A DNA stretch of 58,961 nt from a bacterium (GCA_023144005.1 JAGLGN010000010.1:1-58961); one strand, 5' to 3'. Positions 13,528 through 58,961 are shown, counted from the first letter of the stretch. Notes: a model not told the origin generated them from the sequence alone. Translations and numbers: made by a program.

Positions 13528-13570
13528 GAAAAGTTCCAAGCGTAGAGTTGAAAATTGCGGAGCAATACGA

Positions 13571-13841
13571 GTGATCTGATTCATAAATACGTTAACAATG
13601 ACTGACGCTATTTTGCTCCGTATTCAAGACGCGAGGAGCGCTGCATACCCACAGCGGTATTTAAGCAACGAGCAACGCAGAAGACAGAAAAAGAGCCTCA
13701 GTCCGAAGGGAATATTATCTTTGGTCAATTTCTTCCTCTCTCTTCGCTTACGGACCACAAAGGGTACGCCGCGCTTATTGTTCGTTGGAATTGACTCAAA
13801 TCTAAACATTCCATTGTCATCGTATTTATGAATCAGACCAC
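13571..13841 (-). mobile_element. MITE-like element, copy A (271 bp)
   Basis: Terminal inverted repeats of ~29 bp start GTGATCTGATTCATAAATAC on the left and GTGGTCTGATTCATAAATAC on the other strand at the right end. The interior matches the copies at 49633 and 54437 in reverse orientation. The short open frames inside are not conserved as proteins and no transposase is present. Confidence 0.75.
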
Positions 13842-13903
13842 CAGACTCTACGCTCGTTAAAATTACATGTGCAAATCAACACATAATATTGAATCTAAAA
13901 GTA

Positions 13904-23300: not shown

Positions 23301-26300
23301 ACACAGTTTTTCGCGACGACCTTGTAATAATATGTACTTGCCGAAGAAAGCGTTGAATCCGTATAGAGGATCACTGAAAGATCCGACACTACCAGGGTAG
23401 CTGTTGCAGTATCTACGGGCGAAGTATCGCTTCTATAAAGGTCATAAGTGATATCCGCATTCTCAGCGTCCGTGGCTGCATCCCAGGACAGGTCTGCTGT
23501 AGTAGCTGTAGAATCGTCAACGGTGATATTGGAAACACCGCTGGATGCCCAATCCGGAGAAGTGGTATCCCCTGTATCGCATCCCGCAGCAACGATATCC
23601 GCTGCATTTCTGGGATTCAATCTATAGCGGTCGTATCCGTAAAGGACAATACCTGTGACCGAAGAATACTCATCACCGGATGACATTGAAACATTGTAGA
23701 AGGTATCGTCCACATCCAATTCATTGGTTCCCGATTGATCCTTGATCCTCCAATTTCCGTTCGCGTCCGTAGAAGAGCTCACAACAACATTGTAGAAGGT
23801 CATCAAGACACCCTCATAGGGCTCCTGTGAAGCAGAACATGTAACACCGGGCAAGGTGCCGCCGAAATTCTCCACAGTATCCGTGGCTGCGGCGTGAGGT
23901 GTATTCCCTGTCGTATTTACCGAATATGAGGTTACGGAAATTAATTCGGTTAAGCCGAAATACTCATCAACGGTTCCCGTAACGGTGATCGAATCACCAA
24001 TTGACGGACTATTTGTAGCATCGTATATAAGAACACCATACCATCCTCCGGCAGCCTCTTCGATAACATAATTACCGGTAGCCGATGCGGAGACAATACC
24101 GGAAAGTGTTACTACCTGGCCGTCGTAGGGAGAATCATAACATCCCGTGCCGACGCTGGCTGTATATTGAACATCATAAATGGTGACTGCACCCAGAGGA
24201 ACATCTGCCTGAACCTCGTCAGAAGCGGTCATCTCAAGAGGAACACAGTTCTTTGCGACAACCTTATAATAGTAAGTGGTGCCGGCAGAAACCGTATTGT
24301 CAGTATATGTGTCTGCTGTAGCGTTGGAAGAAACTAGAGTCGCCGTGGATGTATCCACAGGCGTGGTCTCGCTTCTGTAAAGGTCATATTTTACAGCTTC
24401 GGTGGTATTCTCCGAATCTGTGGCAACATCCCAGGCAAGAGCAACGCTGGATGTCGTGGAATTGGTAACAGCGATATTCGAGATACCGGATGATGCCCAA
24501 TCCGGGGGAGTGGTGTCCCCGGTATCACAAGTACTACTGCCGCCGGCGGCATCATAGTATATCTCGACAAATTCATTCGCAAATGCCTCCGCGTCCGAAT
24601 ATTCGTTGATAACAACGCCTGCGGAAGAGGGTGTACCGACACCGGAACCCGGTGTTGCATTAGTCCTTGCGGAAGCTGTCCAGGAACCTGCCAAGGTGCC
24701 GTCGTCGCCGGGATTGTTCCTCTCCGCGGTCTGGCCGCTCGTGAGTACAAGGCCGGTTATGCCGTCGATCAGGGTCGAGGTATCATCCTCTAATTTATAT
24801 GTTTCACCGCCATTGATCTGCGGGCATACATTTGCTGAATTCAGATATACCGCATTGGCAGGCAATGAAACTCCCCATGCGGTTTCAAATGCGGCCTGCG
24901 TGGCATCACGACCCACGATAAGGTATCCGCCCGCTTGGATCTTGGTGTCTGCAGGGAAGGTATAATTAGCGCCATTATCGATCTGAGTTATTTTCCAGCC
25001 GGAAACATCGATCTCCGGAGGAGTCCCTATAGTGATCTGGAAAGTATCGGTCTCTGAATAGGGTCCGTCCGCTGAAATATTCAAGGTAAAAGTAATAATA
25101 GTTCCCACGGGACATCCCGCGTCAACAGAAAATGCATATGCTGTTGAGCAAGTGGAAGTACCGCCGGAGGTAATATCGGGATAATTTGATGAGTTGCCGG
25201 TAATAGTAATGTAAGTGCTTCCCGTTGAAAGAGTGGCGGAAACATTCGTTGCCGTACTGGTACCGCTGTTTCCAAGGTCAACAGACATCGAAACCGACTC
25301 ACCGGGATCAGCAACACCGTCAGAATTACCCGATGAATCATCTATGACATTGGAAGAATAAGACAGGGCGACAGGATCTGAAAGGACCAGGCCCTGAATG
25401 AACTCGTCCCAATTATTCGACGGCGCGATCAAAGTGGAATCATAGTAGTCGTCATAATCCGAAGTGGAGTATGGATAATAGATACCTACGCCATAACAGT
25501 CATATCCCGTTTCCGCGAAATTATTGGTCACGGCGCTGTTAATAACGGATCTCACATTTACCGCTTCATCCTTGACCGATTGCGGGATCGCCGCAGCCTC
25601 AAGATTAAGGCATAGATTATAGAGGTCTATCTGATCATCATAAGGAATTGAAGAATCAAGCTCAAAAGTAGCTCCTCTTGCTGATAATATCTGGGCGGAA
25701 TATGAGTTCAATGCGTATCTCAGCTCGACCGCCAAATCATTTATAGCAGAGGTAAGTGTATCTGACCATGCCAGATCAACAGAGGACTGAGTATCTCCAT
25801 TAGATCCGCCTTCACCGTCAGCATAGGCATCGACAACAGCATTTGAAAGCTGAAGCGGAGTAAGATTCCCATTGGCTACAGCGAGGTCATTCAGGAAAAT
25901 GTCATACGACCATCCCTCAAGCCACTCGGACATCTCAGAGGCGACCATATAATCAAAATACGGGGCGGATTCCGCATTATTCTCCCACATCTGGTCAAGA
26001 CATACATCGTATCCGACTATGTCGAGTTTAGCTCCATAATAAGAGTAAATGTCACTGAATGCGGATCCCATTTCACCAAGAACGCCCGGGGTACCTGAAG
26101 TGAAGTAGATATAATCGCCGCTGGTATCATCGGAAGAAGCGCCCTTATATGAAGCGAGGTTATCAGAGACATTCCTCCAGCCGTCGCCATGATCCCAGAT
26201 CACGAGCATATAATGCTGCGCGGGATAATTATCATAAACCCACTCGGCAAAATCAACCAATGTCTGGCCGTCACCCATATTGGCTTCGCCTATATCGGAT

Positions 26301-29300
26301 ACGGCATTGGCGGCATCTGGGGTCATTCCATTAGTAATATAGAATCTCTTGGTACTTGTCCAGTCGCCATAAGCGGTGCTATACCCGGAGATCCTGTCCA
26401 TCTGGACAACAATATTTATATTCGCGTCAGAACCGACAGAAGACATTTCAAGGAAATCGTCCAGGCCGTCTGCCTCGAGATTATTATCGCAATTAAGAAA
26501 TACTGCGATCGTCCAATCCTTTCCTGAAAGAGTGGGAGTCCCGGAATCTTCGTCGGTATTAGTGGTCTGCAGGCCTGCGCAATTATACGCCTGCACGGTA
26601 TAAAAATACTCAAGGCCATTCGTTAATCCGGAATCATCATATGAAGTTGTGGTAAGCCCGGTATCGATCAAGGTGCCGGCACCGGGAGTAAAATCTGCTG
26701 TTAAAGAACGGTATATTGCGTACAAAACAGGATTTTCAGGATCGGTGGCTGTATTCCATGTGATCTGGAGAGCGCCGCCGGTACCCGGGTCGGTAACAGC
26801 TATCAGAGAATCGCCGCCGCCGAAAACAGGAGCGCTGACATCACCCATATCACAAGTGGCCGCAACTATGTCGGATGCATCTCTGGGATTCAGTCTGTAA
26901 CGGTCATATTCGTAAAGTATGACACCGGTAACCGAATCAAGCTGCTCGCCGAGTGTCATGGAAGCGGAATAAAATCTATCGTCAACATCCAATTCATTGG
27001 TGCCCGATTGGTCTTTAATTCTCCAGCGGCCGCTGGCATCAGTCGAAGAGCTGACCTCTACATCATAGAAAGTCACCAAAACACCTTCATAGGTCTCCTG
27101 GGTCGCACCGCAGGAAATACCCGGAAGTGCGCCGCCATACGCCTCAACGGTCAATGTCGAAGCGCTATCTACTGTATTACCCGTAGAATTGACCGTATAA
27201 GAAGTGATCGTTGTCATTTCGGTCAGGCCGAAATATTCATCCACTGTACCGGTAATGGTAACCGAATCTCCCCTCGTGGGAGTATTTACTGAATCATATA
27301 CCAGGACACCGTGCCATGATCCGGAAGCTTCTTCAAGTATATATCTACTGGTCCCTGTTGCGGAAACAATACCCGAAATGGTCACGACTTGTCCAAGATA
27401 TGCGGAATCATAACATTCTGTGCCGATGCTGGCGGTGTATTGCACATCATAGATCGTAAGAGACGAGGGAGTCGGCACCGTTACGCCGATCTCATCCGTT
27501 GCTGTCTTTTCAAGCGGCACACAATTCTTCGCAACTACCTTGTAATAATAGGTGGTGCCTGAAGAAACCGTATTGTCGGTATATGTGAGCGCTGTACCGT
27601 CGGAAGAAACAAGCGTAGCTGTGGATGTATCCACAGGTGAGCTCTCGCTTCTGTAAAGGTCATATTTTATCGCTTCTGTCGTATTCTCTGAATCTGCGGC
27701 AATATCCCAGGCAAGAGCAACGCTGGATGTAGTGGAATTGGTAACAGCGATATTTGATATGCCGGATGATGCCCAATCGGGCGGCGTGGTGTCCCCTGTA
27801 TCACAGGAGCCGCTGCCGCCGGAGGAGTCATAATAAAGCTCGATAAATGCGAGAGTGTAACTGGCGGCCTGATCAGCATACTCATTTATCACAAGGCCCG
27901 CGTCCGATGCGGTTCCAGCTCCTGCACCCGGTGTCGGAGAAGCGTCAATACTTGTCCAGCTGCCGATCAGAGAAGCATCGTCACCGGGATTATTCCTTGT
28001 AACAGTAAAGGGATCCGCGCCGAAATTATTATAAGTGGTCTCGATACTGGCTGCACCATCGGTCAATTCATAATATTCGTCGCCGTTGATAACGGGGAAT
28101 CCGTTGCCGCCGATAACGTCAAATCCGTTAAAATAAATCGTGCCGGCGGGCAAAGACCCGTATTCCGCCTCGAACTCGGCTTGAGTTGCCTGACGGGCAA
28201 TAACAACATATCCGCCCGGATCAATAGAGGTGGATGCTGGAAATGTAAATGTCGCGTCTGCGGCATACTGTATGATCTGATAACCGGAAATATCAAGAGG
28301 CGTCCCGCTGCCGCCGGAAGCGGTAGGGGTCGCGGATAATTCATTTGAGTAATTACTTAGAGCAGGCAATTTTGCCGTATCATAATTCTTCACCGTATAA
28401 TAATAGGTCGTTCCGTTGACCAATCCGGTATGCGTATATGTGGTCAAGGTCGTGGTATCAATATAAGTATAGGGTTCGCCTGTGGTCGTTGAATAATACA
28501 CTCTATACTCATCGGAGCCGGTTACGGCAGACCAGGAAAGGGCAACTTCACCGTCGGACGCATTGGCACTTGACAAGGTTGGCGCTGATGCCGGATCGGT
28601 AGGTATGCCGATTCCCTCATCGGTATTTGTGGATTGAACAGGGACGCAATTGTATGTCTGAACCGTATAGTAATAAGTCGTGCCTAAGGTAAGTCCGGTG
28701 TCAGTATATGAGGTTGAGGCGCCTGTATTGATAAGCGTTCCCGCACCGGGGGTAAAATTCGGAGTAAGGGATCTGTATAAAGCATATTCCACACTGGCTG
28801 GATTCTCAGAATCATTCGCAAGATTCCAGGATACCTGAAGAACGGTGCCGTTTTCCTGATCCGCCACCGATATTCCTGAAGTTCCTCCGGAAAATACCGG
28901 AGCAGTAGTATCACCGCTATTGCATGAACCGCCTGCGGGAGCGTCATAATAAAGCTCAATATAAGCAAGTGTATAGCTGCTGCCTTGATCGGCATACTCG
29001 TTTATCACAAGACCCGCATCCGATGTGGTTCCCACTCCGGCGCCCGGGGTCGGCGCGGCGTCAATGCTTGTCCAGCTGCCGATCAGAGAGGCATCATCAC
29101 CGGGATTGTTCCTTGAAACAGTAAAGGGATCCGCGCCGAAATTATTATAAGTGGTCTCGATACTGGCTGCGCCATCGGTCAATTCATAATATTCATCACC
29201 GTTGATGACAGGGAAGCCGTTACCGCCGATAACATCGAATCCGTTAAAATACATCGTGCCGGCGGGTAATGCTCCATACTCGGTCTCAAACTCCGCCAAG

Positions 29301-30634
29301 GTAGCCTGACGTGCGATAACAACATATCCGCCCGGATCAATTGAGGTAGAAGCCGGAAATGTAAATGTCGCATCTGCCGTATACTGTATGATCTGATAAC
29401 CTGAAATATCCAGGGGGCTGGAGCCGCCGCTTGCGGTGGGAACTCCATAGGCCTCGTCGGAAACATTATTCAATGTGGAAAGAGGAACACAATTTACAGC
29501 GGCAACACGATAATAATATGTTGTATCGTTGGTCAAGCCCGTATCGGTATAAAGTGATTCCGATAATGAAGAAACTATGAGATTGCCCGCGCCGGGTGTA
29601 AAGCCCGAAGTGGCGTCCCTGTATAAAGTGTAAGTGAAGTTGGGATTTTCCGTATCAACCGCATCATCCCAATCCAGGCCATTCACCGTATTGCCGGGAG
29701 TAATAGTAAGATTTGAAATGCCGCTGGCAGCCCAATCCGGGGCCGTAATATCCGTGCCGTCACAGGAGCTTTCCAGAAGCCATTCCATACCGTTCATAAA
29801 GGCGACACGGTCATCGGCTTCATTCCAGCCATCGTATAAGGTGTCTCCCGAATATCCTGTCCCGTCATCGGCAGGTGATGAATCGCCCACCGCGCAGACG
29901 CGGCCCGATCCGTATTCCGCAGATGCGAACATGGCATATGTGCCGCCTACGGAGTCCCTCCAGATATGTCCTTTCGCTGTGGCGTTGTTTCCCGTATTGA
30001 GAGTAACCGCTGTGCCGCCGTGGAAGGCGAAAGAAGAGACATCGCCGTATGATCCGTGAACTATCGGATCACCCGCGTCCGAAGCTACGTAACTCGAAGT
30101 ATAGGTAAAATCATCATATGTTTCGTCCACCTGGAAATGAAGTCCGAAATAGGTCTCTGTACCGAAATCGTTCCATATCTCAGGGGAATCCCAACCATTG
30201 CTGTTTCGATCGGAGATCCAATGGTCAGCGACCATGAAAAGACCGCCGCCTGCATTTACAAATGCCAGGATAGCGTCTCTTTCCGATGTTGTGAATTGAT
30301 TCTGCGGCTCGCAGACCACAAAGACATCATAATTAGAAAGGTCATAGGCATTTGATCCGTCACCATATGTTATGCCATAGGATGATGTTAATGTATGACA
30401 TGTATGCCCCGCCTCATATGATTCAAAGCCCCATGCGGATATTGCGCCGTCCCAATCATCTTCCGCGGCGGGATCCGAAGGACTCGGGACAGGATAATTC
30501 GTATCGATCACCCAATCAGCATTACCTGCCCGCTGATCCTTAGTATAATCAAAAAGTATGTTTGCAGAAAATCCATTCACGCCGATGCCAAGGAGCAGCA
30601 CGGCCAACACGAAAACCAGAGATAATTTCTTCAT
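17366..30634 (-). CDS. Giant secreted multidomain protein with clostripain-type (C11) protease
   Basis: 4422 aa. Residue positions are approximate. 1-24: signal peptide. 25-290: ThuA/GATase-like domain. Then FN3-like modules (…DWASSGISNI…Y.LYRS…TYYY.V.A.NC.) alternate with about eight lamin-tail-like modules (INEY…E.VELYY). 1061-1261 and 2148-2348: two copies of an OB-fold-like (DUF5689-type) domain. 1371-1755: peptidase C11, with catalytic His in VIWDHGDGW (~1480) and Cys in GYDVCLDQ (~1542). 3861-4195: TolB/WD40-like propeller. 4330-4422: C-terminal domain starting VVYPNPYY, resembling T9SS-type sorting domains. Start: GGAG 5 nt before ATG. Probably an exported surface protein for adhesion and proteolysis; sorting route is inference. 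Confidence 0.88.
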   Translation of the reverse strand: MKKLSLVFVLAVLLLGIGVNGFSANILFDYTKDQRAGNADWVIDTNYPVPSPSDPAAEDDWDGAISAWGFESYEAGHTCHTLTSSYGITYGDGSNAYDLSNYDVFVVCEPQNQFTTSERDAILAFVNAGGGLFMVADHWISDRNSNGWDSPEIWNDFGTETYFGLHFQVDETYDDFTYTSSYVASDAGDPIVHGSYGDVSSFAFHGGTAVTLNTGNNATAKGHIWRDSVGGTYAMFASAEYGSGRVCAVGDSSPADDGTGYSGDTLYDGWNEADDRVAFMNGMEWLLESSCDGTDITAPDWAASGISNLTITPGNTVNGLDWDDAVDTENPNFTYTLYRDATSGFTPGAGNLIVSSLSESLYTDTGLTNDTTYYYRVAAVNCVPLSTLNNVSDEAYGVPTASGGSSPLDISGYQIIQYTADATFTFPASTSIDPGGYVVIARQATLAEFETEYGALPAGTMYFNGFDVIGGNGFPVINGDEYYELTDGAASIETTYNNFGADPFTVSRNNPGDDASLIGSWTSIDAAPTPGAGVGTTSDAGLVINEYADQGSSYTLAYIELYYDAPAGGSCNSGDTTAPVFSGGTSGISVADQENGTVLQVSWNLANDSENPASVEYALYRSLTPNFTPGAGTLINTGASTSYTDTGLTLGTTYYYTVQTYNCVPVQSTNTDEGIGIPTDPASAPTLSSANASDGEVALSWSAVTGSDEYRVYYSTTTGEPYTYIDTTTLTTYTHTGLVNGTTYYYTVKNYDTAKLPALSNYSNELSATPTASGGSGTPLDISGYQIIQYAADATFTFPASTSIDPGGYVVIARQATQAEFEAEYGSLPAGTIYFNGFDVIGGNGFPVINGDEYYELTDGAASIETTYNNFGADPFTVTRNNPGDDASLIGSWTSIDASPTPGAGAGTASDAGLVINEYADQAASYTLAFIELYYDSSGGSGSCDTGDTTPPDWASSGISNIAVTNSTTSSVALAWDIAADSENTTEAIKYDLYRSESSPVDTSTATLVSSDGTALTYTDNTVSSGTTYYYKVVAKNCVPLEKTATDEIGVTVPTPSSLTIYDVQYTASIGTECYDSAYLGQVVTISGIVSATGTSRYILEEASGSWHGVLVYDSVNTPTRGDSVTITGTVDEYFGLTEMTTITSYTVNSTGNTVDSASTLTVEAYGGALPGISCGATQETYEGVLVTFYDVEVSSSTDASGRWRIKDQSGTNELDVDDRFYSASMTLGEQLDSVTGVILYEYDRYRLNPRDASDIVAATCDMGDVSAPVFGGGDSLIAVTDPGTGGALQITWNTATDPENPVLYAIYRSLTADFTPGAGTLIDTGLTTTSYDDSGLTNGLEYFYTVQAYNCAGLQTTNTDEDSGTPTLSGKDWTIAVFLNCDNNLEADGLDDFLEMSSVGSDANINIVVQMDRISGYSTAYGDWTSTKRFYITNGMTPDAANAVSDIGEANMGDGQTLVDFAEWVYDNYPAQHYMLVIWDHGDGWRNVSDNLASYKGASSDDTSGDYIYFTSGTPGVLGEMGSAFSDIYSYYGAKLDIVGYDVCLDQMWENNAESAPYFDYMVASEMSEWLEGWSYDIFLNDLAVANGNLTPLQLSNAVVDAYADGEGGSNGDTQSSVDLAWSDTLTSAINDLAVELRYALNSYSAQILSARGATFELDSSIPYDDQIDLYNLCLNLEAAAIPQSVKDEAVNVRSVINSAVTNNFAETGYDCYGVGIYYPYSTSDYDDYYDSTLIAPSNNWDEFIQGLVLSDPVALSYSSNVIDDSSGNSDGVADPGESVSMSVDLGNSGTSTATNVSATLSTGSTYITITGNSSNYPDITSGGTSTCSTAYAFSVDAGCPVGTIITFTLNISADGPYSETDTFQITIGTPPEIDVSGWKITQIDNGANYTFPADTKIQAGGYLIVGRDATQAAFETAWGVSLPANAVYLNSANVCPQINGGETYKLEDDTSTLIDGITGLVLTSGQTAERNNPGDDGTLAGSWTASARTNATPGSGVGTPSSAGVVINEYSDAEAFANEFVEIYYDAAGGSSTCDTGDTTPPDWASSGISNIAVTNSTTSSVALAWDVATDSENTTEAVKYDLYRSETTPVDTSTATLVSSNATADTYTDNTVSAGTTYYYKVVAKNCVPLEMTASDEVQADVPLGAVTIYDVQYTASVGTGCYDSPYDGQVVTLSGIVSASATGNYVIEEAAGGWYGVLIYDATNSPSIGDSITVTGTVDEYFGLTELISVTSYSVNTTGNTPHAAATDTVENFGGTLPGVTCSASQEPYEGVLMTFYNVVVSSSTDANGNWRIKDQSGTNELDVDDTFYNVSMSSGDEYSSVTGIVLYGYDRYRLNPRNAADIVAAGCDTGDTTSPDWASSGVSNITVDDSTATTADLSWDAATDAENADITYDLYRSDTSPVDTATATLVVSDLSVILYTDSTLSSASTYYYKVVAKNCVPLAMTSSDEAVAITPEAVGGCATDLIISEYIEGSASEKYIEVYNGTGNSIDLSGYKLQLFANGASTPTSDVSLSGSLADGQTIVYMNSAATLYAGIVNNACGFNGDDAMALYKISTSTYVDVIGQIGTDPGSFWGTEPTTTVNHTLVRKSSITAGDANGSDAFDPAGEWDAYAIDTVSYLGAHTMDCGAGCDTGDVTAPVWASGSNIAVTDAQSGGTLDITWDAATDTENGDYIKYALYRSTETGFTVDATTLIDTNISTLTYNDTGLTNGTTYYYIVQAYNCAALQTSNSDEDFGIPTDPAQSPTLLTANGGDTLVGLTWSSVTGSDEYRVYYSTFDGGPYTLITSTTVNSYEQTGLTNGTTYYYVVVNYDAEKYPAVSANSNQLSAVPDVPSQNDIDVSGWKIVQYSSTNTYTIPNGIIIPEGGYLVVGRNADKSAFETFWGVTLASDVIYVNSSDQMPLINGDEYFELLDDSDVSQDGPSSLILSSNNTVERTNPGDPAGDTTSWTMSASTSATPGSGVGASSNAGVIVNEYSDASSYEYEFVELYNDTTGPPDLTPPVFAGIQSVTDTQLGGELELAWNTATDTSTPIVYNVYMSTASAGQNFSSLSYSTSSLSYLVTGLENGTQYYFVVRAEDSRGNEDTNTVEISGTPTSKFSDPGFGDILINEFSAKGTERIELYNTSGIDTFNLCSVDIESYTGVDEVDVVTGRSYIEPGEYLTFFPDNIGLSNLGNTIVMTIGVTTIDQVAYGVEGGAPIAYTGYSTARIATTGSDADDWNRDITPTFGSVNDAPAVSLGTSVVINEYMKDAGSDTNVLELYNPTGGDIDVTGWLFTDADDSVGGIGTLSGTVTADSYLVFTRDAGTPMADVVISGDNVYLYDASGIRVDQASDFGHTFTAGNTAQRLPNGTGGTNNGYDWASAGFTEQETTWNESNDLCNYSDVTAPDWAVSGISNVAGIENGAHISVSWDAAIDAENPDRIFYSVYRSTETPFTIDASTLIETDLQTLAYDDYSVIKGDTNYYMIATYNCNVLETEGTDEAAVYMPNPPITPLLITCVGGNNYVFIDWSDVADVDHYVIYNSTESGGPYSEVTTTVVSQYSDSGLINGVTYYYVVTSYDTDKDPFESPYSNEKFAIPEECLPKGDTVMISEIMIYPRAEITNEEGEWIELYNPTDSPISIVGWSLSDTGIDTYTIPAGCPSVPAYDYLVLGATDNLILNDYVEVDFVYNRASGGPGAFALGNTGDEVILKDATGDTIDMLIYTSAWFDQGYSITKEDLMACSDEQSSWGNETTQWNPPDSSYGTPGTSNFPFGFYYATAPSLIRIEFSFTHEVDMATADDVAKYLLYETATPANEVSLTALTFSGDITSGYFDCASLTPGVEYTIEIIGAMQDAYFHPVTDSHKLTTFIAPTPLLEGDNPILFPEWSKDGTEVAYIVYNILTGKSNIWKQNRDGTGAMQVTVDADNVSHAGQFTFSTNGVYFAFTADGGGYTQIRRISTTGGEPSVLMEPASEFTSNWGRWCDPHWGSWSNQASGTEMLLCSISGELWVCNPVTIRNTDVSLVKLTELTSGTYTDTYAVSDKLMQPKWAPDNTAITFVRRHAGEGVTNSDIYVIDNIQSYIAAVNTVSSWANSDVELISGYSEPCWSPSISVDGTQVSYVIDQNNVFSNVDFWTDPDAEFASANFDAYYEAVDGSQSDGSVLEANPYNEGFMKWAPAGGDQFIYTSRDSGGIYSLNVINHQITQGFTKSGLRVQDYSLSSMEITDVGYLSSLTIESPIHIPEIMRNYEYIGESRKFSSAGNDDAMLNAVVSIHFMNEELKDRLPSSLKLLYYNEVMGDWEELTSKVELDSIGGYVSAEVYSLGIYAIASKASVVSDDLGDVVVYPNPYYAADLTAPLSFETKWVVEEILIYSVSGELLDISLVDFDDTQSPQLGSGGYTDRYDLSKSKLEDYASGVYLIVFKGAEETVTCKFALIK

Positions 30635-31027: not shown

Positions 31028-31673
31028 GTGTTCTGATTCATAATTACTATGACAATGGAATTTTTAGATTTGAGTTAATTCCAACGAACAATGAGTACGG
31101 CGTACCCTTTGTGGTCCGCAAGCGAAGAGAGAGGAAGAAATTGACCAAAGATGACATTCCCTTCGGGCTGAAGCTCTTTTTCCGACTTCTGCGTTTCAAG
31201 TGCTCTGATTTAAAATACGATGACAATGGAATATATGAATTTGAGGCAATTCCAACGAATAATGAGCGCAGCGTACCCTCTGTGGTCCGTGAGCGAAGAA
31301 TGAGGAAGAAATTGACCAAATATGATATTCCCTCCGGGCTAAAACTCTTTTTCTGTCTTCAGCGTTCCTCGTCCCTTACATACCGCTACGGGTATGCAGC
31401 GCTCCTCGCGTCTTGAATACAACACAAAATAGTTTCAGCCATTGTTATCGGATTTTGAATCAGAGCACTATAGTCCCTTACATACCGCTGCGGGTATGCA
31501 GCGCTCCTCGCGTCTTGAATACAACACAAAATAGTTTCAGCCATTGTTATCGGATTTTGAATCAGAGCACTATAGTCGCTTACATACCGCTGCGGGTATG
31601 CAGCGCTCCTTGCGTCTTAAATACAACACAAAATAGCTTCAGCCATTGTTACAGTATTTATGTATCAGATCAC
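31028..31673 (+). mobile_element. Expanded MITE-like element, copy B (646 bp)
   Basis: Starts with GTGTTCTGATTCATAA and ends in TATTTATGTATCAGATCAC, the family termini. Unlike the 269-271 bp copies it contains the left half twice (offset ~171 bp; second copy from ~31200, itself starting with a TIR-like GTGCTCTGATT) and the right half three times (102-bp period). Confidence 0.7.
31375..31673 (+). repeat. Three tandem 102-bp units inside MITE copy B
   Basis: Units begin at 31375, 31477 and 31579 with CTTACATACCGC and each ends in a TIR-like ...GAATCAGAGCAC or variant. The first two are nearly identical; the third has a few changes. Confidence 0.8.
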
Positions 31674-32677
31674 TTTAGCATGGACTTCATATAGGATTTA
31701 TCGAAGAAGTTAACACCCTCCAAAGCATATCTGAAGTCCTTAATAATACCAAAGATCTTTTTAACCACCATCGGGCCGAAAACAAGATTAAGTTTATCTA
31801 TGAATTCATTAAGTAAAAGCGCTACAGCGGTCACAAATGATTCCACATCCAGGTCCACTCCGGAAAGATCGATATTATCGGTTTCGATCAGAACATTTTT
31901 TATCTCGGGGATTTTCTGAGCTAATTTATCCACGCCGGAATTAAAGTATTTTACAAGATTATCGGGGGAATGCTCCTTGCCGAGTTCTTCCAGGGTCTTC
32001 TGAAGGATCTTTTCCATCAGATCTACTATATGAGGTGATAATTGCGGTTCTATCTCAACCGGGTTATCAAAAATATTGATCTGCACGCCTTCCTCTTCCT
32101 CCTTGAATAAGTGAACGAGTGAATCCAGAAGAAGTGTAATGTCATTTCTTTTTATCGTTTCTTCCAGAAACGGCTGAAGATCGTCACAGAGATAGAGATA
32201 GGAAAGCTCCCCATTCTCCACGAAGATCAGATTAGAGGAATTCTTATAAATGAACTCGATAAACCCATTGTACTTATTTTTTATCATAACGGAGAATAAT
32301 TTGTTCACATCAGTAAATCTGGTATTCAGGTTGTATTTGGGTTTTGCGTAGAATTTGTTCAGTATACCGTTCAAAATATTTTCATCTATCTCAAAAAAGG
32401 ACATTGAGGCATCTTCGTCCTTTTTCTTGAATTCCTTCATCTTCCTCAATATGGACAGCATGGAGGCCGGTTGAAATTCATCATCTTTAATCGTTCCGCT
32501 GGAAAAAAGCTCACCCTTTCTGAAAAAGAGCAGGGATTGCTCATGGGGAAAAATAACAGATACACAGGCATCTATCTTGGCCCTTCTGTCGGTTTGCGCA
32601 TGAATAATAATGTTATCTACATCGACATATCTGACCGGTGCCAGGGCAATAATTTCTCTGATCTTAGGAATATTCAT
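31670..32677 (-). CDS. Uncharacterised protein at the end of the V-ATPase operon
   Basis: 335 aa, not recognised with confidence. It has no signal peptide or membrane segment. The middle part (GFIEFIYKNSSNLIFVENGELSYLYL) has the strand-turn-strand shape of DUF4388/PATAN-like sensory modules, and an N-terminal half with SVIFPHEQSLLFFRKGEL repeats that shape. It overlaps the subunit D gene by 14 nt, so it is translationally coupled to the V-ATPase genes. A role in ATPase assembly or regulation is conceivable but unproven. Its 3' end touches MITE copy B by 4 bp. Confidence 0.75.
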   Translation of the reverse strand: MNIPKIREIIALAPVRYVDVDNIIIHAQTDRRAKIDACVSVIFPHEQSLLFFRKGELFSSGTIKDDEFQPASMLSILRKMKEFKKKDEDASMSFFEIDENILNGILNKFYAKPKYNLNTRFTDVNKLFSVMIKNKYNGFIEFIYKNSSNLIFVENGELSYLYLCDDLQPFLEETIKRNDITLLLDSLVHLFKEEEEGVQINIFDNPVEIEPQLSPHIVDLMEKILQKTLEELGKEHSPDNLVKYFNSGVDKLAQKIPEIKNVLIETDNIDLSGVDLDVESFVTAVALLLNEFIDKLNLVFGPMVVKKIFGIIKDFRYALEGVNFFDKSYMKSMLK

Positions 32678-49237: not shown

Positions 49238-49632
49238 ATATCTCTCCTTTATTATTCCCTTCAATACATAGAGTCGCTTCTCCCAATGAAACAAGGTTGT
49301 TGCTTATTGTCTTTTTCATATCTATATCATTATATACTTTTTACACTATATTGTCAATACTTATTTTTGCGCAACTGTATTCTGATAGATATATGACTGT
49401 TTTGGGTTAATTGCCTAGTAATGGCGTTAGTTCTTTGATTCCTGAATGCGGTGACAGTCGTTCACGAGTGATGGATGTACACGGTTGGATGTACGAAGTG
49501 AAAAGTAGAGAAAGGAAATATAGATGGATTCCCGCTTTCGCGGGAATGACAAAAGAGAGAGGGATAGCATTCGAAAATGTGTGGAGATTGTTCTCGGGTG
49601 ATTTTAAACCCATTCTCCCTCCACCCGCCCAG
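49238..49632. other. Intergenic region with REP-like palindrome
   Basis: No gene seen. The first ~130 bp is AT-rich and likely carries the hydrolase promoter. It contains the palindrome at 49526-49550. Confidence 0.6.
49526..49550. repeat. CATTCCCGC-type palindromic repeat
   Basis: ATTCCCGC-TTTC-GCGGGAAT, an 8-bp stem with a 4-nt loop flanked by GG and GAC. This matches the 'GTCATTCCCGCGAAAGCGGGAATCC'-style repeat widely dispersed in many bacterial genomes. Confidence 0.75.
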
Positions 49633-49901
49633 GTGATCTGAGTCATAAATAAGATGGCAATGGAATGTTTAGATTTGAGGTAATTCCAACGAACAATGAG
49701 CGCAGCGTACCCTTGTGGTCCGCAAGCGAAGAGAGAGGAAGAAATTGACCAAAGATTAGATTCCCTTCGGGCCGAAGCTCTTTTCTGTCTTCTGTGTTGC
49801 TCGTTACTTACATACCGCCTTGGGTATGCAGTGTTCCTCGCGCCTTGAATCCGTAACAAAATAGCTTCAGCCATTGCTATCGTATTTATGACTCAGAACA
49901 C
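49633..49901 (+). mobile_element. MITE-like element, copy C (269 bp)
   Basis: Left end GTGATCTGAGTCATAAATAA, right end CGTATTTATGACTCAGAACAC. The interior contains the shared blocks AATTCCAACGAACAATGAGC, TTGTGGTCCGCAAGCGAAGA and TTCCCTTCGGGC. The open frames in it are not protein-like in other copies. Confidence 0.78.
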
Positions 49902-50107
49902 TATTCTCCAGGGACGGAGGTGGTGAATTTTTCAACCTACTTATTTATCTGAATTGGATGTATTTAGTTAAAATATTCAACCTTCCGTCCGGTAGGCTGA
50001 TAGCTCCGGCGTTCTATTGTTTCAACGGATGATTGTGATGAAAGAATCGAAATAACGATTTTCCGGTTACGGATGTGATTCCCTTTTTCTGCACTAACCT
50101 CGAACCT
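49902..50107. other. Gap downstream of the acyl-CoA synthetase
   Basis: No gene. 50023-50077 is a partial copy of dispersed repeat family 2 (ends in TTTTCCGGTTACGGATGTG). 50098-50111 is a CCTCGAA-CCTCTAT heptad pair; the second unit contains the acyl-CoA synthetase stop codon. Confidence 0.65.
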
Positions 50108-52476: not shown

Positions 52477-53904
52477 ATGAAGGAAAAAAAAAGAGAGAGA
52501 TTTAACTTTTATTTGAGAGCCCTCAAAGGACTATCTAATATATATATAAATGTTGGCCAATACAATGACTCTATGAAAATAGAGAAGCAGATTGAGAGTA
52601 CTAATATTGATGAATTGGAGAAGTATCATACATGGATACAGCAAGCTCTGATCTATGAACTCACTTCCAGGTTTGATGAAGCAAAAGAAATACTGACGCA
52701 AATAATTACTGATACTCCGCATTCCCTAGTTGCCGTCAAGGCTTTGGGGAAGTTATGTTGGATCAATAGACTGCAGGGAGATTTCAATACAGCCGCAACA
52801 TATGGAGATCAGGGTATCGCTATTGTTGCAAACCTGAGGGAGGCTGATTCAGACTCAGAAGACCTGCTTAAGACAGAAGCATCGTTATTGAGCAGCATAG
52901 CGGCAATATATTGGAATAAAGGGGAATTTCAAAATGCAATAGATTTTTACAGTAGAGCAATTTATCTTCATAAAAAAACAACTGATATTAACTTCCTTGG
53001 CACTCTATATTCAAATATCGGGGCCGTATATTTGCATATGGGGAATTCTGATAAAGCCGAATCTCTATTTATCAAGCAGATGAAGTTTTCTCAAAAAACA
53101 GGCAATAAACTTGGGATGGCTATGGCAGCGAATAATCTTGGTGTCGTATATATTCAGAAAAATGATCTGGATAAAGCTGTTACTCTAAACAGAAAGGCGC
53201 TGAAATTGGCTTATGAATTGGGGGATAAATTCGGAATAGAGAGCGTATCGATAAATTTGGGAAGTATATACCTTATACAGGCGTGCTATGATAGAGCCGA
53301 GAAAATGTTTTTTGATGCATTAGCAATATCCGAGAAAATAAATGATAAACCTACGCAGGCATCATGCTATATGTATATAGGGGAGTTCTATTTGGAAACT
53401 GATGTAATGAACAAAGCAAGGAAATATTTAAGGAAGGCGTGGAGCGACTTAAGCTCATTAGGTGATCGAACATACCTTTGCGTCACAGCCGGTTTATTGG
53501 CGGAATACGGAATAAAAAAACTATCTAGAGGAAAGACTAATCGTAAAAAGAACATTGATGAGATAAAGGAGTTCATTGAGAAAAAGCGCCGATATGCATC
53601 CGAGATAGGTGCTGAGCATGAAAATAATCATGCTGACCTTCTGGAGGCAATGCTTTGGGGAAAAACAAAAACTCGGTCAGTAAAGGAAATAAGAGAACGA
53701 TTTGAAGAATGCAGTTATAAGTATAAAAAAATGAACATGCTGACAGAGCTTGGAAAAGCTTACTATAATTATTGTGAATTTTTGTTTTTGTCGGGTGAAT
53801 CAGCAATGGGCATATATAAAATGTGTGAAAGGGTTCTAAAAAAAGGAAAAAACATTCATTATTTGAGTAAATTGGAACGCAGCGAAGAGAAGCACAAGGC
53901 GTAG
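52477..53904 (+). CDS. Tetratricopeptide-repeat protein
   Basis: 475 aa composed of helical TPR units (e.g. SSIAAIYWNKGEFQNAIDFYSRAI, SNIGAVYLHMGNSDKAESLF, NNLGVVYIQKNDLDKAVTLNRKAL). No signal peptide, membrane segment or catalytic domain. The sequence resembles the C-terminal TPR part of larger signalling proteins (kinase/ATPase-TPR), so it may be a detached fragment; no matching N-terminal part lies upstream. No Shine-Dalgarno precedes the ATG. It is AT-rich relative to its neighbours. Its location between two copies of a promoter repeat and next to the export cassette leaves open a regulatory or scaffold role. Confidence 0.78.
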   Translation: MKEKKRERFNFYLRALKGLSNIYINVGQYNDSMKIEKQIESTNIDELEKYHTWIQQALIYELTSRFDEAKEILTQIITDTPHSLVAVKALGKLCWINRLQGDFNTAATYGDQGIAIVANLREADSDSEDLLKTEASLLSSIAAIYWNKGEFQNAIDFYSRAIYLHKKTTDINFLGTLYSNIGAVYLHMGNSDKAESLFIKQMKFSQKTGNKLGMAMAANNLGVVYIQKNDLDKAVTLNRKALKLAYELGDKFGIESVSINLGSIYLIQACYDRAEKMFFDALAISEKINDKPTQASCYMYIGEFYLETDVMNKARKYLRKAWSDLSSLGDRTYLCVTAGLLAEYGIKKLSRGKTNRKKNIDEIKEFIEKKRRYASEIGAEHENNHADLLEAMLWGKTKTRSVKEIRERFEECSYKYKKMNMLTELGKAYYNYCEFLFLSGESAMGIYKMCERVLKKGKNIHYLSKLERSEEKHKA

Positions 53905-54363: not shown

Positions 54364-54441
54364 GGGTCCACTGGCACCTTATGAATGGTGCCGCTATTGA
54401 CACAGTAAATTAAATAATATAGAATATTTTGAGGTGGTGTA
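54364..54441 (+). promoter_or_regulatory. Promoter-bearing direct repeat, copy 2
   Basis: Same as 52340-52418 with a few changes. TTGACA at 54397-54402, a 17-nt spacer and TAGAAT at 54420-54425. It faces the export cassette; MITE copy D begins inside its last bases and lies between this promoter and the ABC gene. Confidence 0.72.
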
Positions 54442-54705
54442 CTGTTTCATAAATACGATGACAATGGAATTTGTAGATTTGAGTCAATTCCAACGAACGA
54501 TAAGTGTGGCGTACCTTTAGTGGTACGTAAACGAAAAGAGAGGACGAAATTGACCAAAGATGATATTCCCTTCGGGCTGAAGCTCTTTTCTGTCTTCTGT
54601 GTTGCTCGTTGCTTACATACCGCAGTGGGTATGCGGTGGGCCTGGTGCCTCTCATGCTAAACAAAGTAGCATCAGCCATTGTCAACTTATTTATGAATCA
54701 GGACA
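54437..54705 (+). mobile_element. MITE-like element, copy D (269 bp)
   Basis: Left end GTGTACTGTTTCATAAATAC, right end TTATTTATGAATCAGGACAC. The interior shares the family blocks (GAAATTGACCAAAGATGATA, TTCCCTTCGGGCTGAAGC). It ends 17 bp before the ABC exporter start, just upstream of its AAGGAGG site. Confidence 0.78.
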
Positions 54706-54722
54706 CTATATAAGGAGGAGAA

Positions 54723-56453
54723 GTGAAGAAGTACGGACAGCTATGGCGTTTTTCCAAACTCATTCGTCCCTATTGGGGCAATATAGTCCAGTCGATAGTT
54801 CTTGGAATAATAATCACCATACTCTCTCTTCCGATCCCATGGTTCACAAAGATCCTTATTGACACGGTTTATCCTGAAAGCAATGTAGATCTCCTGTATT
54901 TCATTCTGCTTACACTGCTTTTATTTTCTGTTGTGCAGGCACTTTTTAATTTCCTCAGAAATTATTTTATGTATAGCCTAGGCCTTAAGATGTGGACAGA
55001 GCTTCAATTCAAGTTCTTTAAACACCTTTTAAAGCTTTCCTTCAATTTTTTCGATTCAAGGAAAGTTGGAGAGGTCATGTCGAGATTTCAGGACGCGGGA
55101 GAATCTCTCTACCGGATCATGGACATAATTAACCGTGTCATCATGAGTACACTTTCGATAATAATTTTCCCTGTGATTATCTTTTTAATAAACTGGAAGC
55201 TCGCACTTATCGCAATCTGCCTGATACCCGTGGATGCACTGGTCTTCTTCTATACCAATAAATACATACATAAATTTTCTAAAAAGGCAGTAGAAGCGGG
55301 GGCAGAGCTTTCCGCAAAGAATTTCGAAACGCTTTCAGGCATCCGGACGGTTCAATCGCTGAAGATAGAGAAGCAGATAACCGGCAAGATAAAAAGCCTC
55401 TATTCCGAAATGCTTAATGCGCGCTTAAAGACAGGTCTTTTACAAAACGGCTCCCAGATGGCTCTCGGAGTAATAAGGGCGGTCACGCGCTTTTTATACA
55501 TGTGGTTCGGCTGGGTCCAGATACTCAACGGCGATCTGACCCTTGGGAAATACCTCGCTTTCACCATGTTCATCGGCTACCTTTATGATCCTTTGAGACA
55601 GCTCGTTACCCTCAGTCAGGACATTCAGATAACCCTTATCCACACCGGAAGGTTCTTTGAGTTCTATGACATTAAACCGAAGATACATGATACCTCTGAG
55701 GCAAAAGAGCTGCCGGAGAATATCAAAGGCGATATCGTATTCAAAGATGTGAATTTTTCCTATGAAAAGGGGCAAGCAATTTTGAAAAATATTAATATGA
55801 ATATCCCGCAAGGCAATACCGTAGCGCTCGTGGGAAAGAGCGGGGTCGGCAAATCTACTATCGCATGCCTTATTCAGAGATTTTACGATCCTGACTCAGG
55901 AAGCATACATATAGATGAGTATGATATAAAAAAAGTAAAGGTGGAATCTCTCCGAAGTAAGATGGGGACGGTGATGCAGGATCCGTTTCTGTTCTACGGG
56001 ACGATCCTTGATAATATCACGCTTGAAAGAGGGGCGATCGATATGCAAAGAGTGAAGAAGGCCGCCGAAATGGCGTATGCCGATACCTTTATTGAGGCAT
56101 TCCCCAAAGGTTACGATACGATCATCGGAGAGAGAGGACTCCGTCTTTCACAGGGACAAAAACAGAGGATAACCATTGCCCGGATCCTCTATGTTAATCC
56201 TTCGATCCTGATCATTGACGAGGGGACATCATCACTTGACCTTGAATCCGAACAGTATATCCAAAGTGCTTTAAAGAAGATCAGGAAGGGCCGTACGACC
56301 GTAGTTATAGCGCATCGCCTTTCTACGATCAAAGATGCGGATATTATATTCGTGATAGACGAAGGGACGATCAAGGAAAAAGGTACTCATGAAGAGCTCA
56401 TGGCGGATTCCGTGGTTTATAGAAACCTCTACGACCGTCTGACGGTGATATAA
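54723..56453 (+). CDS. ABC exporter, fused membrane and ATPase domains
   Basis: 576 aa from GTG 54723 (TAAGGAGGAG just upstream). Six membrane helices (~20-310), then an ATPase with Walker A GKSGVGKST (~378-386), signature LSQGQ in place of LSGGQ, Walker B ILIIDEG and H-loop AHRLST. No N-terminal C39 peptidase, so it cannot itself cleave a double-glycine leader. The helix-rich first half is of the type-IV (MsbA/lipid or peptide) exporter class. First gene of a four-gene operon with a HlyD-like protein, an AhpD-like protein and a metallopeptidase; a peptide substrate is inferred from context. Confidence 0.93.
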   Translation: MKKYGQLWRFSKLIRPYWGNIVQSIVLGIIITILSLPIPWFTKILIDTVYPESNVDLLYFILLTLLLFSVVQALFNFLRNYFMYSLGLKMWTELQFKFFKHLLKLSFNFFDSRKVGEVMSRFQDAGESLYRIMDIINRVIMSTLSIIIFPVIIFLINWKLALIAICLIPVDALVFFYTNKYIHKFSKKAVEAGAELSAKNFETLSGIRTVQSLKIEKQITGKIKSLYSEMLNARLKTGLLQNGSQMALGVIRAVTRFLYMWFGWVQILNGDLTLGKYLAFTMFIGYLYDPLRQLVTLSQDIQITLIHTGRFFEFYDIKPKIHDTSEAKELPENIKGDIVFKDVNFSYEKGQAILKNINMNIPQGNTVALVGKSGVGKSTIACLIQRFYDPDSGSIHIDEYDIKKVKVESLRSKMGTVMQDPFLFYGTILDNITLERGAIDMQRVKKAAEMAYADTFIEAFPKGYDTIIGERGLRLSQGQKQRITIARILYVNPSILIIDEGTSSLDLESEQYIQSALKKIRKGRTTVVIAHRLSTIKDADIIFVIDEGTIKEKGTHEELMADSVVYRNLYDRLTVI

Positions 56454-57137
56454 ATGGAAAGTAAAAAATACTTCGATATAACGAAAAAACTTGTTGTTTA
56501 TGTTCTCTGGTTATTCATCTTACTTCTGATATCGTTATTTGTTCTGACAAATATTTTTGAAGGAAGTGAGACCATTACCGTATCCGGAAATCTGTATCCG
56601 TCAAAGATGCAGTATATCAAAGATAAGGATGCGGCAGTAATAATAAAAGACGGGGAGAGGGTCATAAAGGGACAATCTCTAATTGCTGCTTCAGAGATAA
56701 AGTCCACGGACAAGATCATAATCGCTGAAATCAACGGAGAAGTCCACATCAGAGAGGCACTCGGGAAGGTTCGTGAGATCTTCATTTATGACCCTGATTC
56801 TTGGGAAGCAGAAGTATTTATTCCCGAAAACCAGCTGAACAGGATCAACACCGATTTGCAGACCATCGTTTTGATAAACGCGCTTTCGCATATGGACCAC
56901 GGCACAATTGACGGGAGATTGGCGAAGATAGGAAGGGTACCGATGCGCGGGGACATGCTGCCGGCGATATTTTACAATTCTACCGTTTCACTCTCCGGAG
57001 ATGCCCTGACAAAAATGATCGACAATAGAAGATTGTTCCCGGGCATGAGCGTTAAGTGCCGTATCGTTTTGAAAAGGGACAAGGTTTTTAAACTCTTTTA
57101 TGATAAGATGGTGAAAAAGGTGTTCTATGAAAATTGA
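56454..57137 (+). CDS. HlyD-like membrane-anchored accessory protein
   Basis: 227 aa starting 1 nt after the ABC stop. One N-terminal membrane segment (~11-33) is followed by an extracytoplasmic beta-rich region with short half-lipoyl-like motifs (KDGERVIKGQSLI, AEINGEVHIREALG) and a beta-barrel-like stretch (WEAEVFIPENQLNRI...) ending in FPGMSVKCRIVL, a common close in membrane-fusion proteins. It lacks the long alpha hairpin of full HlyD proteins. Most likely it couples the exporter to the periplasm or wall. The sequence match is weak; the call leans on architecture and position. Confidence 0.65.
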   Translation: MESKKYFDITKKLVVYVLWLFILLLISLFVLTNIFEGSETITVSGNLYPSKMQYIKDKDAAVIIKDGERVIKGQSLIAASEIKSTDKIIIAEINGEVHIREALGKVREIFIYDPDSWEAEVFIPENQLNRINTDLQTIVLINALSHMDHGTIDGRLAKIGRVPMRGDMLPAIFYNSTVSLSGDALTKMIDNRRLFPGMSVKCRIVLKRDKVFKLFYDKMVKKVFYEN

Positions 57138-57495
57138 TGATAGTATCCGTGAGAAAAAAAGGAAAGAACTGGCGGAAAAGTTCATAAGCGAGGTATCTGA
57201 GGTAAGTCCGGCGTTTTCGAAACATTTCAGCTGCTTCTGGAAGGACAAGAGATGTGGTGGAGCCATGCAGGATAAAGATAGAGAGCTCCTCATGCTTCTG
57301 GCTGGGCTCGTGGACAATTGCGAACCCTGCGTGAGATTTCACATGGCAAATGCGATGAAGCAGGGAGCTGCTGAAGCCGAGATCTTCGAGACCATTTCCG
57401 TAGCGGTGGTCATGTGTTCCGACCCCAATATCCATGAACACGTAAAATATTGTCTGAGTATTTATGAAAAATTTAAAAAGAATCTCATTAAATAA
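57127..57495 (+). CDS. AhpD-like (carboxymuconolactone decarboxylase family) CxxC protein
   Basis: 122 aa. The AhpD/CMD signature is present: CEPCVRFH, with C65, C68 and H72 (family pattern CxxC...H). This supports thiol-disulfide or peroxidase-type chemistry. Four other cysteines (C36, C43, C97, C109) are unusual for so small a member. It overlaps the HlyD-like gene by 11 nt and the peptidase by 32 nt. Next to a cysteine-rich peptide gene it could form, reduce or protect disulfides; this is inference. Confidence 0.85.
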   Translation: MKIDDSIREKKRKELAEKFISEVSEVSPAFSKHFSCFWKDKRCGGAMQDKDRELLMLLAGLVDNCEPCVRFHMANAMKQGAAEAEIFETISVAVVMCSDPNIHEHVKYCLSIYEKFKKNLIK

Positions 57496-58684
57496 CGACC
57501 TTCAATTATTGATATCTGCATATGGAGAGTTCCTGCGTGAATACGGCATTTTCCACCGCACTATGCTCGAATTCCCAAACACATTCGGCTACAATGAGAT
57601 CAAAAAAAGTATCGATAAGAATCTATCTGAGCTACGGCGATATTCACCCGATAGTAATCTTGAAAAACTTCTTCTACATCAGATGGAATTCGCTTATGGC
57701 GTATTTGAATGTTTTTCCGATTACTATTTCATGTTTCCTGAAAAACCAATCGACGAGCTGTTGAAAAAGATCTTCGGCAATTCAATACTTGATGATGCGG
57801 AAGAGATGATAAGGCACCTGGATTACAGGAAGATCTGGGATTATTACAAATTAGAGGACCGGTACTCGCATCAGCGGATCACCCTTTACAATAATGAACT
57901 GGACGAGAAGATCAGAAAAGTATTCGATCATATTAAAAGGAGCGCGGTCCAGTGGGGCGTGGAAAGGGATATTATTCCTGAAGGCCTTCAGATCGAGATC
58001 GAGCTGAGCTCTTTCGGCAACGGTTCAAATTACGATCCTGAAACTAAACGGATTGAGATAGACAGGAATTATTTTCTTGTTTTTTCCGATGGAGCTGAAA
58101 AGAAGATAAATCCCCTTCTCGTAATTCCTACTGTGTTTCATGAATTTTTCGGCCATGCATTGAACGGCGTATATTCTGAGCAATTACCGCTTCCTTTTCA
58201 GGCTGATTGGAACGCCGACCCTCAAATATTCAACAAATCAGTATCCGAGGGCATTGCCGGCATAGCTGCCGAATGGTCGCTTGAACTAATCGAAGAACGC
58301 AAGGATGAATTCAATATCAACGATCAGGATATCACCTATCTGAAAGAACTGCTTAAGATAAATCCGATCATGAGCATGATCAGCGGATATTTCGGGTATT
58401 TGAGATTTAAAGGAGCCGAGGATCCTGATTTCAACCCTACGGAAAAATTGATTGAGATATCAAATAACCGAGGTTTCGCGTACAATATGTCCCAGCAGCG
58501 AATTCCGGATATGCAGAAACTCATTTATCAAATATCTTCTTATCGCGGTAAATCCCTCGTGAGAAGCGTCTATAATGACCTCATAGCTCAAGGCAAAGAC
58601 GTGGCAACCGCCGACAAGGCAATTCTTTCTGCTAATTCCGGCCTTCACATCTATAAAGAACTTGTAGGATCGATCACTTCCTGA
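57464..58684 (+). CDS. HExxxH metallopeptidase, DUF1704/MATCAP-like
   Basis: 406 aa, no signal peptide or membrane segment. The active-site helix reads VFHEFFGHALNG: H226, E227 and H231 give HExxxH, one residue longer than HExxH. About 31 residues on, SVSEGIAGIAAEW (E262) matches in position and pattern the QEGLA motif that supplies the third ligand in DUF1704 ('QEGLA motif') proteins and in the related MATCAP tubulin carboxypeptidases. The intervening NG..S.QLPLPF also resembles that family's NG..QPL. An M3-type oligopeptidase with an inserted residue is the alternative. A peptide-trimming role in the export cassette is inferred. Confidence 0.78.
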   Translation: MKNLKRISLNNDLQLLISAYGEFLREYGIFHRTMLEFPNTFGYNEIKKSIDKNLSELRRYSPDSNLEKLLLHQMEFAYGVFECFSDYYFMFPEKPIDELLKKIFGNSILDDAEEMIRHLDYRKIWDYYKLEDRYSHQRITLYNNELDEKIRKVFDHIKRSAVQWGVERDIIPEGLQIEIELSSFGNGSNYDPETKRIEIDRNYFLVFSDGAEKKINPLLVIPTVFHEFFGHALNGVYSEQLPLPFQADWNADPQIFNKSVSEGIAGIAAEWSLELIEERKDEFNINDQDITYLKELLKINPIMSMISGYFGYLRFKGAEDPDFNPTEKLIEISNNRGFAYNMSQQRIPDMQKLIYQISSYRGKSLVRSVYNDLIAQGKDVATADKAILSANSGLHIYKELVGSITS

Positions 58685-58732
58685 AAATTACGCTTAGAAT
58701 TTCCTTTTGATTCAAAGGGAAAAAGTTCCACC

Positions 58733-58767
58733 AAAAAAAAAGGGGGACCGGAAAACCGATCCCCCTT
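58733..58767 (-). terminator. Intrinsic terminator of the Cys-rich peptide gene
   Basis: Minus-strand RNA: GGGGGAUCGG-UUUU-CCGGUCCCCC, a fully paired stem with one U-G pair, followed by a run of nine U. Read on the plus strand the same position is a C-A mismatch and the tail is TTAAAATTTT, so it is better suited to the minus-strand gene, though it may serve the peptidase operon too. Confidence 0.88.
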
Positions 58768-58794
58768 AAAATTTTCTCTAAGTATTAGTATTGA

Positions 58795-58961
58795 TTAGAG
58801 ATGTAAGAATTTGCTACGGCAACCGTACCAAGGACATGTTCCATTTCCTGAACCGCCCTGATCACCATTGTCGCCACAGAAGTTAGGATCTTCTGAGCAA
58901 AGTGCGCAAAGTGTAACTACAGCGTCATCAGCTTTCTTTCTTTCGGGTGTTGTGATAAATT
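58795..58961 (-). CDS. Small Cys/Gly-rich peptide, C-terminal part only (start outside window)
   Basis: The open frame from 58959 to the TAA at 58795-58797 gives 54 residues; the N-terminus lies beyond the window. A charged stretch (PERKKADDAVV) is followed by TLCALCSEDPNFCGD, a Gly/Asn-rich linker (NGDQGGSGNG) and TCPWYGCRSKFLHL. It has five Cys (two as CxxC), one Trp and seven Gly. This leader-plus-cysteine-core look is typical of secreted or ribosomally synthesised modified peptides. Its own strong terminator argues it is a real gene. It converges on the exporter-AhpD-peptidase operon, whose substrate it may be. No family recognised. Confidence 0.72.
   Translation of the reverse strand, partial: FITTPERKKADDAVVTLCALCSEDPNFCGDNGDQGGSGNGTCPWYGCRSKFLHL

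Follow-up and report, generated by a model that had tools for sequence, protein, structure and literature searches.

The window analysed here is the whole of contig C2 (58,961 bases) of a Candidatus Mcinerneyibacteriota MAG (genome G000), and towards its end it carries four plus-strand genes that abut or overlap in the order ABC exporter, HlyD-like adaptor, AhpD-like protein and putative metallopeptidase, gene calls and domain searches agreeing here with an earlier sequence-only reading. The exporter (54723-56453, 576 aa) shows a membrane and an ATPase domain only (Pfam ABC_membrane, residues 24-291, 9.8e-43; ABC_tran, residues 354-502, 2.3e-30), and the N-terminal C39 peptidase expected for double-glycine (C39) export was absent in the Pfam domain search, as had been read. 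Its orthologues in class-level relatives are 63-64% identical and lie in the same operon order. The short, membrane-anchored HlyD-like adaptor (56454-57137) has weak HlyD matches under the curated cut-offs (TIGR01843, 2.4e-11, 43 bits vs a cut-off of 208.65; HlyD_3, 0.0024), and its orthologue in genome G006 is longer (302 aa). The AhpD/CMD-like protein (57127-57495; Pfam CMD, 8.6e-12; PDB relatives 1vke and 5dik, AhpD) does have the six cysteines first noticed, but only the CxxC pair, C65 and C68, is invariant across four genomes. Finally, the putative zinc metallopeptidase (57464-58684), a candidate leader peptidase with an HEFFGH...SEGIA arrangement, keeps its HEFFGHAL-like HExxGHAL and SEGIA motifs invariant in three genomes. 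This protein fell in no family of Pfam, NCBIfam or PADLOC and gave no meaningful match to PDB profiles; its AlphaFold model was poor (pLDDT 58), and a fold search returned no significant match, with gluzincin-like hints (M3, M32, thermolysin family, IrrE). A congener (L010) and a class-level relative (L011) have the operon genes in the same order; these two were also the only matches of a contig scan for the putative metallopeptidase.

A TPR protein at 52477-53904 was considered as part of the cluster and rejected, as it is not kept beside the operon in the congener G001. At least four sites in the window hold a dispersed intergenic repeat of ~270 bases, 78-91% alike (54435-54707, 49632-49904, 31028-31678 and 13570-13843); one copy immediately precedes the ABC gene, and pieces of the repeat are found close to where the congener's contigs end. 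The window also contains two pairs of diverged direct repeats resembling duplicated gene segments (23586-24572 with 26859-27848, ~75% identical; 27815-28294 with 28931-29410, ~86% identical).

Convergent to the export operon, the small Cys-rich peptide gene proposed from the sequence is indeed present on the minus strand (58795-58961), as the last precursor gene of a Cys-rich array with its 5' end cut; its product reads (MK)FITTPERKKADDAVVTLCALCSEDPNFCGDNGDQGGSGNGTCPWYGCRSKFLHL, where the MK start is taken from relatives. The frame itself (58795-58959) comprises 54 codons and a stop, a few bases short of the expected ATG, and the gene is incomplete because the window is the entire contig, which stops inside it. 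The terminator described as tight lies 27 bases beyond the stop of the frame, on the peptide's strand (58740-58767, a 12-bp stem and a T run); it folds better than 200 of 200 shuffles (z -4.2), and G001 has an identical sequence behind its last peptide gene. Homologous precursor copies occur at L006:3-152(-), L006:173-382(-), L032:13641-13868 and L032:13883-14083, with three more in L057 and one in L058, sharing an MK[YF]IxTP leader and a CxLCSEDPxFC core. Changes between the G000 and G001 precursors fall mainly on third codon positions, with dN/dS values of about 0.15 (69-codon pair) and 0.13 (partial pair); the peptide frame is therefore a gene and not a chance reading, and the peptides are under purifying selection. 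The frame is conserved in four genomes and does not belong to a long unrelated protein, so both outcomes that would have counted against the peptide were averted. A TTGACA-17-TATAAT promoter stands upstream of the first precursor gene in both G000 and G001. In genome G005, three tandem precursor genes (L057:3738-4451) carry an extra Cys-rich half, YCPALGxCNNYAxCKKCPALxNGNPCPQExACG, before their CALCSEDPKFC end, and a 231-aa putative zincin with HEMAHRF and a downstream FFEGFA is encoded ~1.6 kb from that array (L057:6111-6806).

Sequences homologous to the final 88 bases of the window open another contig of the same genome, C3 (L006), which begins inside further peptide copies in an orientation matching the end of C2, so that the truncated array faces the window end. 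Of the two copies on the minus strand of C3, both with a CALCSEDPxFCG motif, that at L006:3-152 is cut by the contig start, whereas that at L006:173-382 encodes a complete precursor of 69 aa. Three genes whose ends overlap form an operon that diverges from the peptides: grasp1, a 306-aa degenerate ATP-grasp protein of no family (L006:665-1585), a radical SAM/SPASM maturase (L006:1527-2942, or from 1566) and grasp2, a RimK-like ATP-grasp protein (L006:2939-3877), array and operon together lying in L006:1-3877. Since the orientation fits and the break falls within a repeated gene, a single locus made of the export operon, the converging peptide array and the diverging modification operon is well supported; with the C2-C3 gap spanned by no contig, the join is one that we infer. 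The sequence-only reading had reported no standard marker, a statement overturned by the SPASM radical SAM and RimK-like ATP-grasp genes beside the peptide copies on C3: their seeming absence was an artefact, because the contig edge hid them.

The maturase combines the radical SAM motif CxxxCxxC (CNFRCEYC) with a seven-Cys SPASM motif, C329-X13-G-X4-C348 ... C389-X2-C-X5-C-X3-C402 ... C416, at positions invariant in four genomes. It matches the Clo7bot maturase model TIGR04334 over its full length with 357.5 bits (cut-off 600) and TIGR04463, also over its full length, with 320 bits (cut-off 525), followed by CefB (NF038107) with 249 bits (cut-off 600) and the PapB model NF047865 with 152.7 bits (cut-off 340). 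The closest solved structure is 5wgg (68.7 bits), the thioether-forming enzyme CteB. A viperin reading (PADLOC, 52 bits) was rejected as generic radical SAM similarity. Grasp2 matches RimK at 1.5e-12 and TIGR04187 at 3.7e-22, and the RimK model TIGR00768 scores it as well as TIGR04187 does, but its closest solved relative is 7drm, the plesiocin synthetase PsnB (126 bits, 1.4e-35, vs 43 bits for alpha-L-glutamate ligases), with the CdnC structure 7mgv and 5ig9 also matched at a distance behind. Its catalytic positions are retained, and LLE.NSSP and YKANVGG are conserved in four genomes. Profile comparison relates grasp1 to grasp2 (E 2.7e-5) and BLASTP relates it to an ATP-grasp protein of genome G142 (24% identity over ~310 residues, E 2e-13); it is a diverged ATP-grasp protein in which both the lysine-glycine motif and the metal ligands E.N are missing, and it is therefore probably not catalytic. 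An AlphaFold model of it (pLDDT 41) was discarded as too poor. Genome G142 has a tandem of one active and one degenerate ATP-grasp gene, together with SPASM radical SAM and HlyD genes and no obvious precursor (L105:219-6010), which means that such a pairing is not unique to the source cluster.

The co-occurrence proposed for the peptide and the peptidase was followed with profiles of the peptide, radical SAM, grasp2 and peptidase in a sample of 386 genomes. The peptide profile matches four genomes (G000, G001, G005 and G006), all Candidatus Mcinerneyibacteriota, and the same four carry the closest radical SAM (E<=3.6e-204; next genome 4e-153) and grasp2 (E<=4.7e-173; next genome 2.4e-53) proteins. 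The peptidase is matched in three of these four, and in none of the 382 peptide-free genomes; it was not found in G006 (72% complete), whose AhpD-HlyD-ABC locus has no peptidase, so that the export operon with the zincin-motif protein occurs in three of the four peptide-bearing genomes. Neither peptide nor peptidase, nor orthologues of the radical SAM and grasp2 proteins, were found in G002-G004, from the family of the source genome. The congener G001 has grasp2, the radical SAM gene and grasp1 with two precursors and the terminator on one contig and the export operon on another, both contigs ending in or near the dispersed repeat, which would explain the assembly break. In G006, a 43-aa precursor is convergent with AhpD-HlyD-ABC on one 3.2-kb contig and grasp1-radical SAM-grasp2 lies on another. 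The cluster genes of G005 are spread over separate contigs, one with the export operon and its peptidase, one with the radical SAM-grasp2 pair and one with the three-precursor array; the precursor contig (8.5 kb) holds none of the other cluster genes and has unrelated genes on both sides, so these peptides may be unlinked to the rest. Physical links thus join the peptide to grasp1-radical SAM-grasp2 in G000 and G001 and to AhpD-HlyD-ABC in G006, and no genome has peptide, radical SAM and exporter all on one contig.

The leader pattern M-x-[FYW]-[ILV]-x-x-P, present in the short Cys-rich precursors of G000, G001, G005 and G006, recurs in short Cys-containing frames next to related maturase genes of seven more genomes (G272, G142, G302, G025, G172, G056 and G123), and the present maturase is a member of the same superclade. 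Pattern-bearing short ORFs with at least two Cys number 18 in 45.7 kb near these and related radical SAM genes, vs two in 117.5 kb of these loci at a greater distance from the enzyme, a count that is not a fair test, as the pattern was drawn from part of the counted loci and only L072 (MKWIVTPSSTLPDDTCINQDC...), seen afterwards, is independent. In G056 (L094:7832-11159), two tandem Clo7bot-like radical SAM genes have four Cys-rich precursors on their flanks, whose leaders read MEFxNxP or MNFINFP. No homologues of grasp1 or grasp2 were found in nine loci examined around related radical SAM enzymes, so that the ATP-grasp pair is, as far as sampled, a Mcinerneyibacteriota addition to a Clo7bot-like core.

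Taken together, the locus is very probably one end of a RiPP gene cluster that makes, modifies and exports small Cys-rich peptides. Among radical-SAM RiPP clusters it belongs to the Clo7bot-like kind, here extended by ATP-grasp proteins, because related maturases adjoin Cys-rich peptides with the same leader pattern. With Clo7bot (TIGR04333/TIGR04334), TIGR04463 and CefA/CefB (NF038108/NF038107) it shares a full-length maturase of the same superclade, several Cys-rich precursors alongside and the leader pattern; unlike them, its maturase scores far below the cut-offs, its peptides match no family model (for TIGR04333, a best of 9.6 bits vs a cut-off of 31, over profile positions 1-8, by the G006 peptide), and the cluster also encodes two ATP-grasp-like proteins, an AhpD-like protein and a zincin. 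The ranthipeptide maturases CteB (5wgg) and PapB (NF047865) are likewise seven-Cys SPASM enzymes acting on Cys-rich substrates with conserved acidic residues, but the PapB precursor motif is Cys-X3-Asp, a spacing from which the CSED of the present precursors differs, and the maturase lies below the PapB cut-off. As to the graspetide synthetases (7drm, CdnC and MdnC), grasp2 is homologous over its full length and keeps the catalytic positions, whereas its putative substrates have a Cys-rich core, and inspection of the alignment did not reveal Phhx(1,2)h, the motif of graspetide leaders (PMC8939145), in the MK[YF]IxTP leaders; the pairing of a degenerate ATP-grasp protein with a Clo7bot-like radical SAM enzyme is a further difference. 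Loci with ATP-grasp and SPASM enzymes (grasp-with-spasm, branch 5) have been described for Bacteroidetes (PMC8939145), and these (TIGR04192/TIGR04193) also direct both enzymes at small peptides, some with conserved Cys; however, grasp2 reaches only 27.1 bits against the TIGR04192 cut-off of 230, and the best matches of the radical SAM enzyme do not include TIGR04193. The G142 locus L105 resembles the source cluster in its tandem ATP-grasp proteins, one of them without catalytic positions, together with radical SAM and HlyD, but no Cys-rich peptide was found alongside and it has further genes that the source cluster lacks. In the literature searched, the combination of a Clo7bot-like radical SAM enzyme with an active/degenerate ATP-grasp pair was not found. 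The combination of radical SAM and ATP-grasp with an inactive-looking twin thus appears new, whereas the concept itself is known: graspetide synthesis that depends on a partner protein was demonstrated in another system, where the partner is a different one (PMC13097080).

Of the two possibilities left by the sequence-only reading, a RiPP-like or a disulfide-peptide system, only the former stands. A disulfide peptide formed without RiPP enzymes, through AhpD-like thiol chemistry and a protease only, would suit the window taken alone, with just its transport, AhpD-like and peptidase genes; this reading was rejected once radical SAM and ATP-grasp genes were found adjoining the peptide family on C3 and in the congener, and with a co-occurrence that is complete across the 386 genomes it is highly improbable. 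That the export operon serves another substrate and is a mere neighbour of the array would agree with the scattering of peptide, radical SAM and exporter over different contigs and with the exporter-free peptide contig of G005, but the arrangement in G006, where the peptide converges on AhpD-HlyD-ABC as in the window, and the restriction of the peptidase to peptide-bearing genomes make it unlikely.

There is a considerable chance, though clearly below one half, that the radical SAM enzyme alone modifies the peptide, as in Clo7bot-like systems, and that the ATP-grasp protein adds a terminal amino acid in the manner of RimK or has another substrate. No grasp homologue lies near the related radical SAM enzymes that share the leader pattern, and the equal RimK score of grasp2 would fit this role; against it, the grasp2 gene comes immediately after that of the radical SAM enzyme in each of the four genomes, and its product is much closer to 7drm than to the alpha-L-glutamate ligases. 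Our favoured reading, that both cross-link chemistries act together, is held tentatively and at somewhat short of even probability. The same reserve applies to the wider proposal of a hybrid RiPP class, in which a single Cys-rich precursor might receive radical-SAM thioether and ATP-grasp ester or amide links, with a dead ATP-grasp partner and a new zincin replacing C39.

The most likely pathway for such a two-chemistry cluster, in which we infer the bonds formed, the order of steps, leader recognition, what the AhpD-like protein and the peptidase do, export and the biological activity, would start with the expression from a strong promoter of several precursors with an MK[YF]IxTPE leader and one or two CxLCSEDPxFC core units. 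The SPASM radical SAM enzyme would recognise the leader and install thioether cross-links from core Cys, likely of the ranthipeptide type, to acidic or neighbouring residues, and grasp2, of the RimK/graspetide type, would add an ester or amide link on a conserved Glu/Asp, the degenerate grasp1 being probably its substrate-binding partner. During maturation the CxxC AhpD-like protein may handle free thiols or peroxide. The HExxH protein would be the best candidate for leader removal, in place of a C39 domain, although it is not universal, as it is missing from the G006 locus. The product would leave the cell through the C39-less ABC exporter and the short HlyD-like adaptor.

The cluster illustrates that assemblies can break at repeated precursor genes, which hides a cluster's defining enzymes from view, and the leader pattern M-x-[FYW]-[ILV]-x-x-P provides a simple handle for precursors missed by current family models. 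Moreover, the pair of an active and a degenerate ATP-grasp protein, recurring in an unrelated genome, gives a concrete model for partner-dependent ligation. These data add an uncultured candidate phylum to the range of Clo7bot-like radical-SAM peptides and couple such peptides to a graspetide-type ligase, a pairing of SPASM enzyme and graspetide-type ligase so far described mainly in Bacteroidetes and with other enzyme families.
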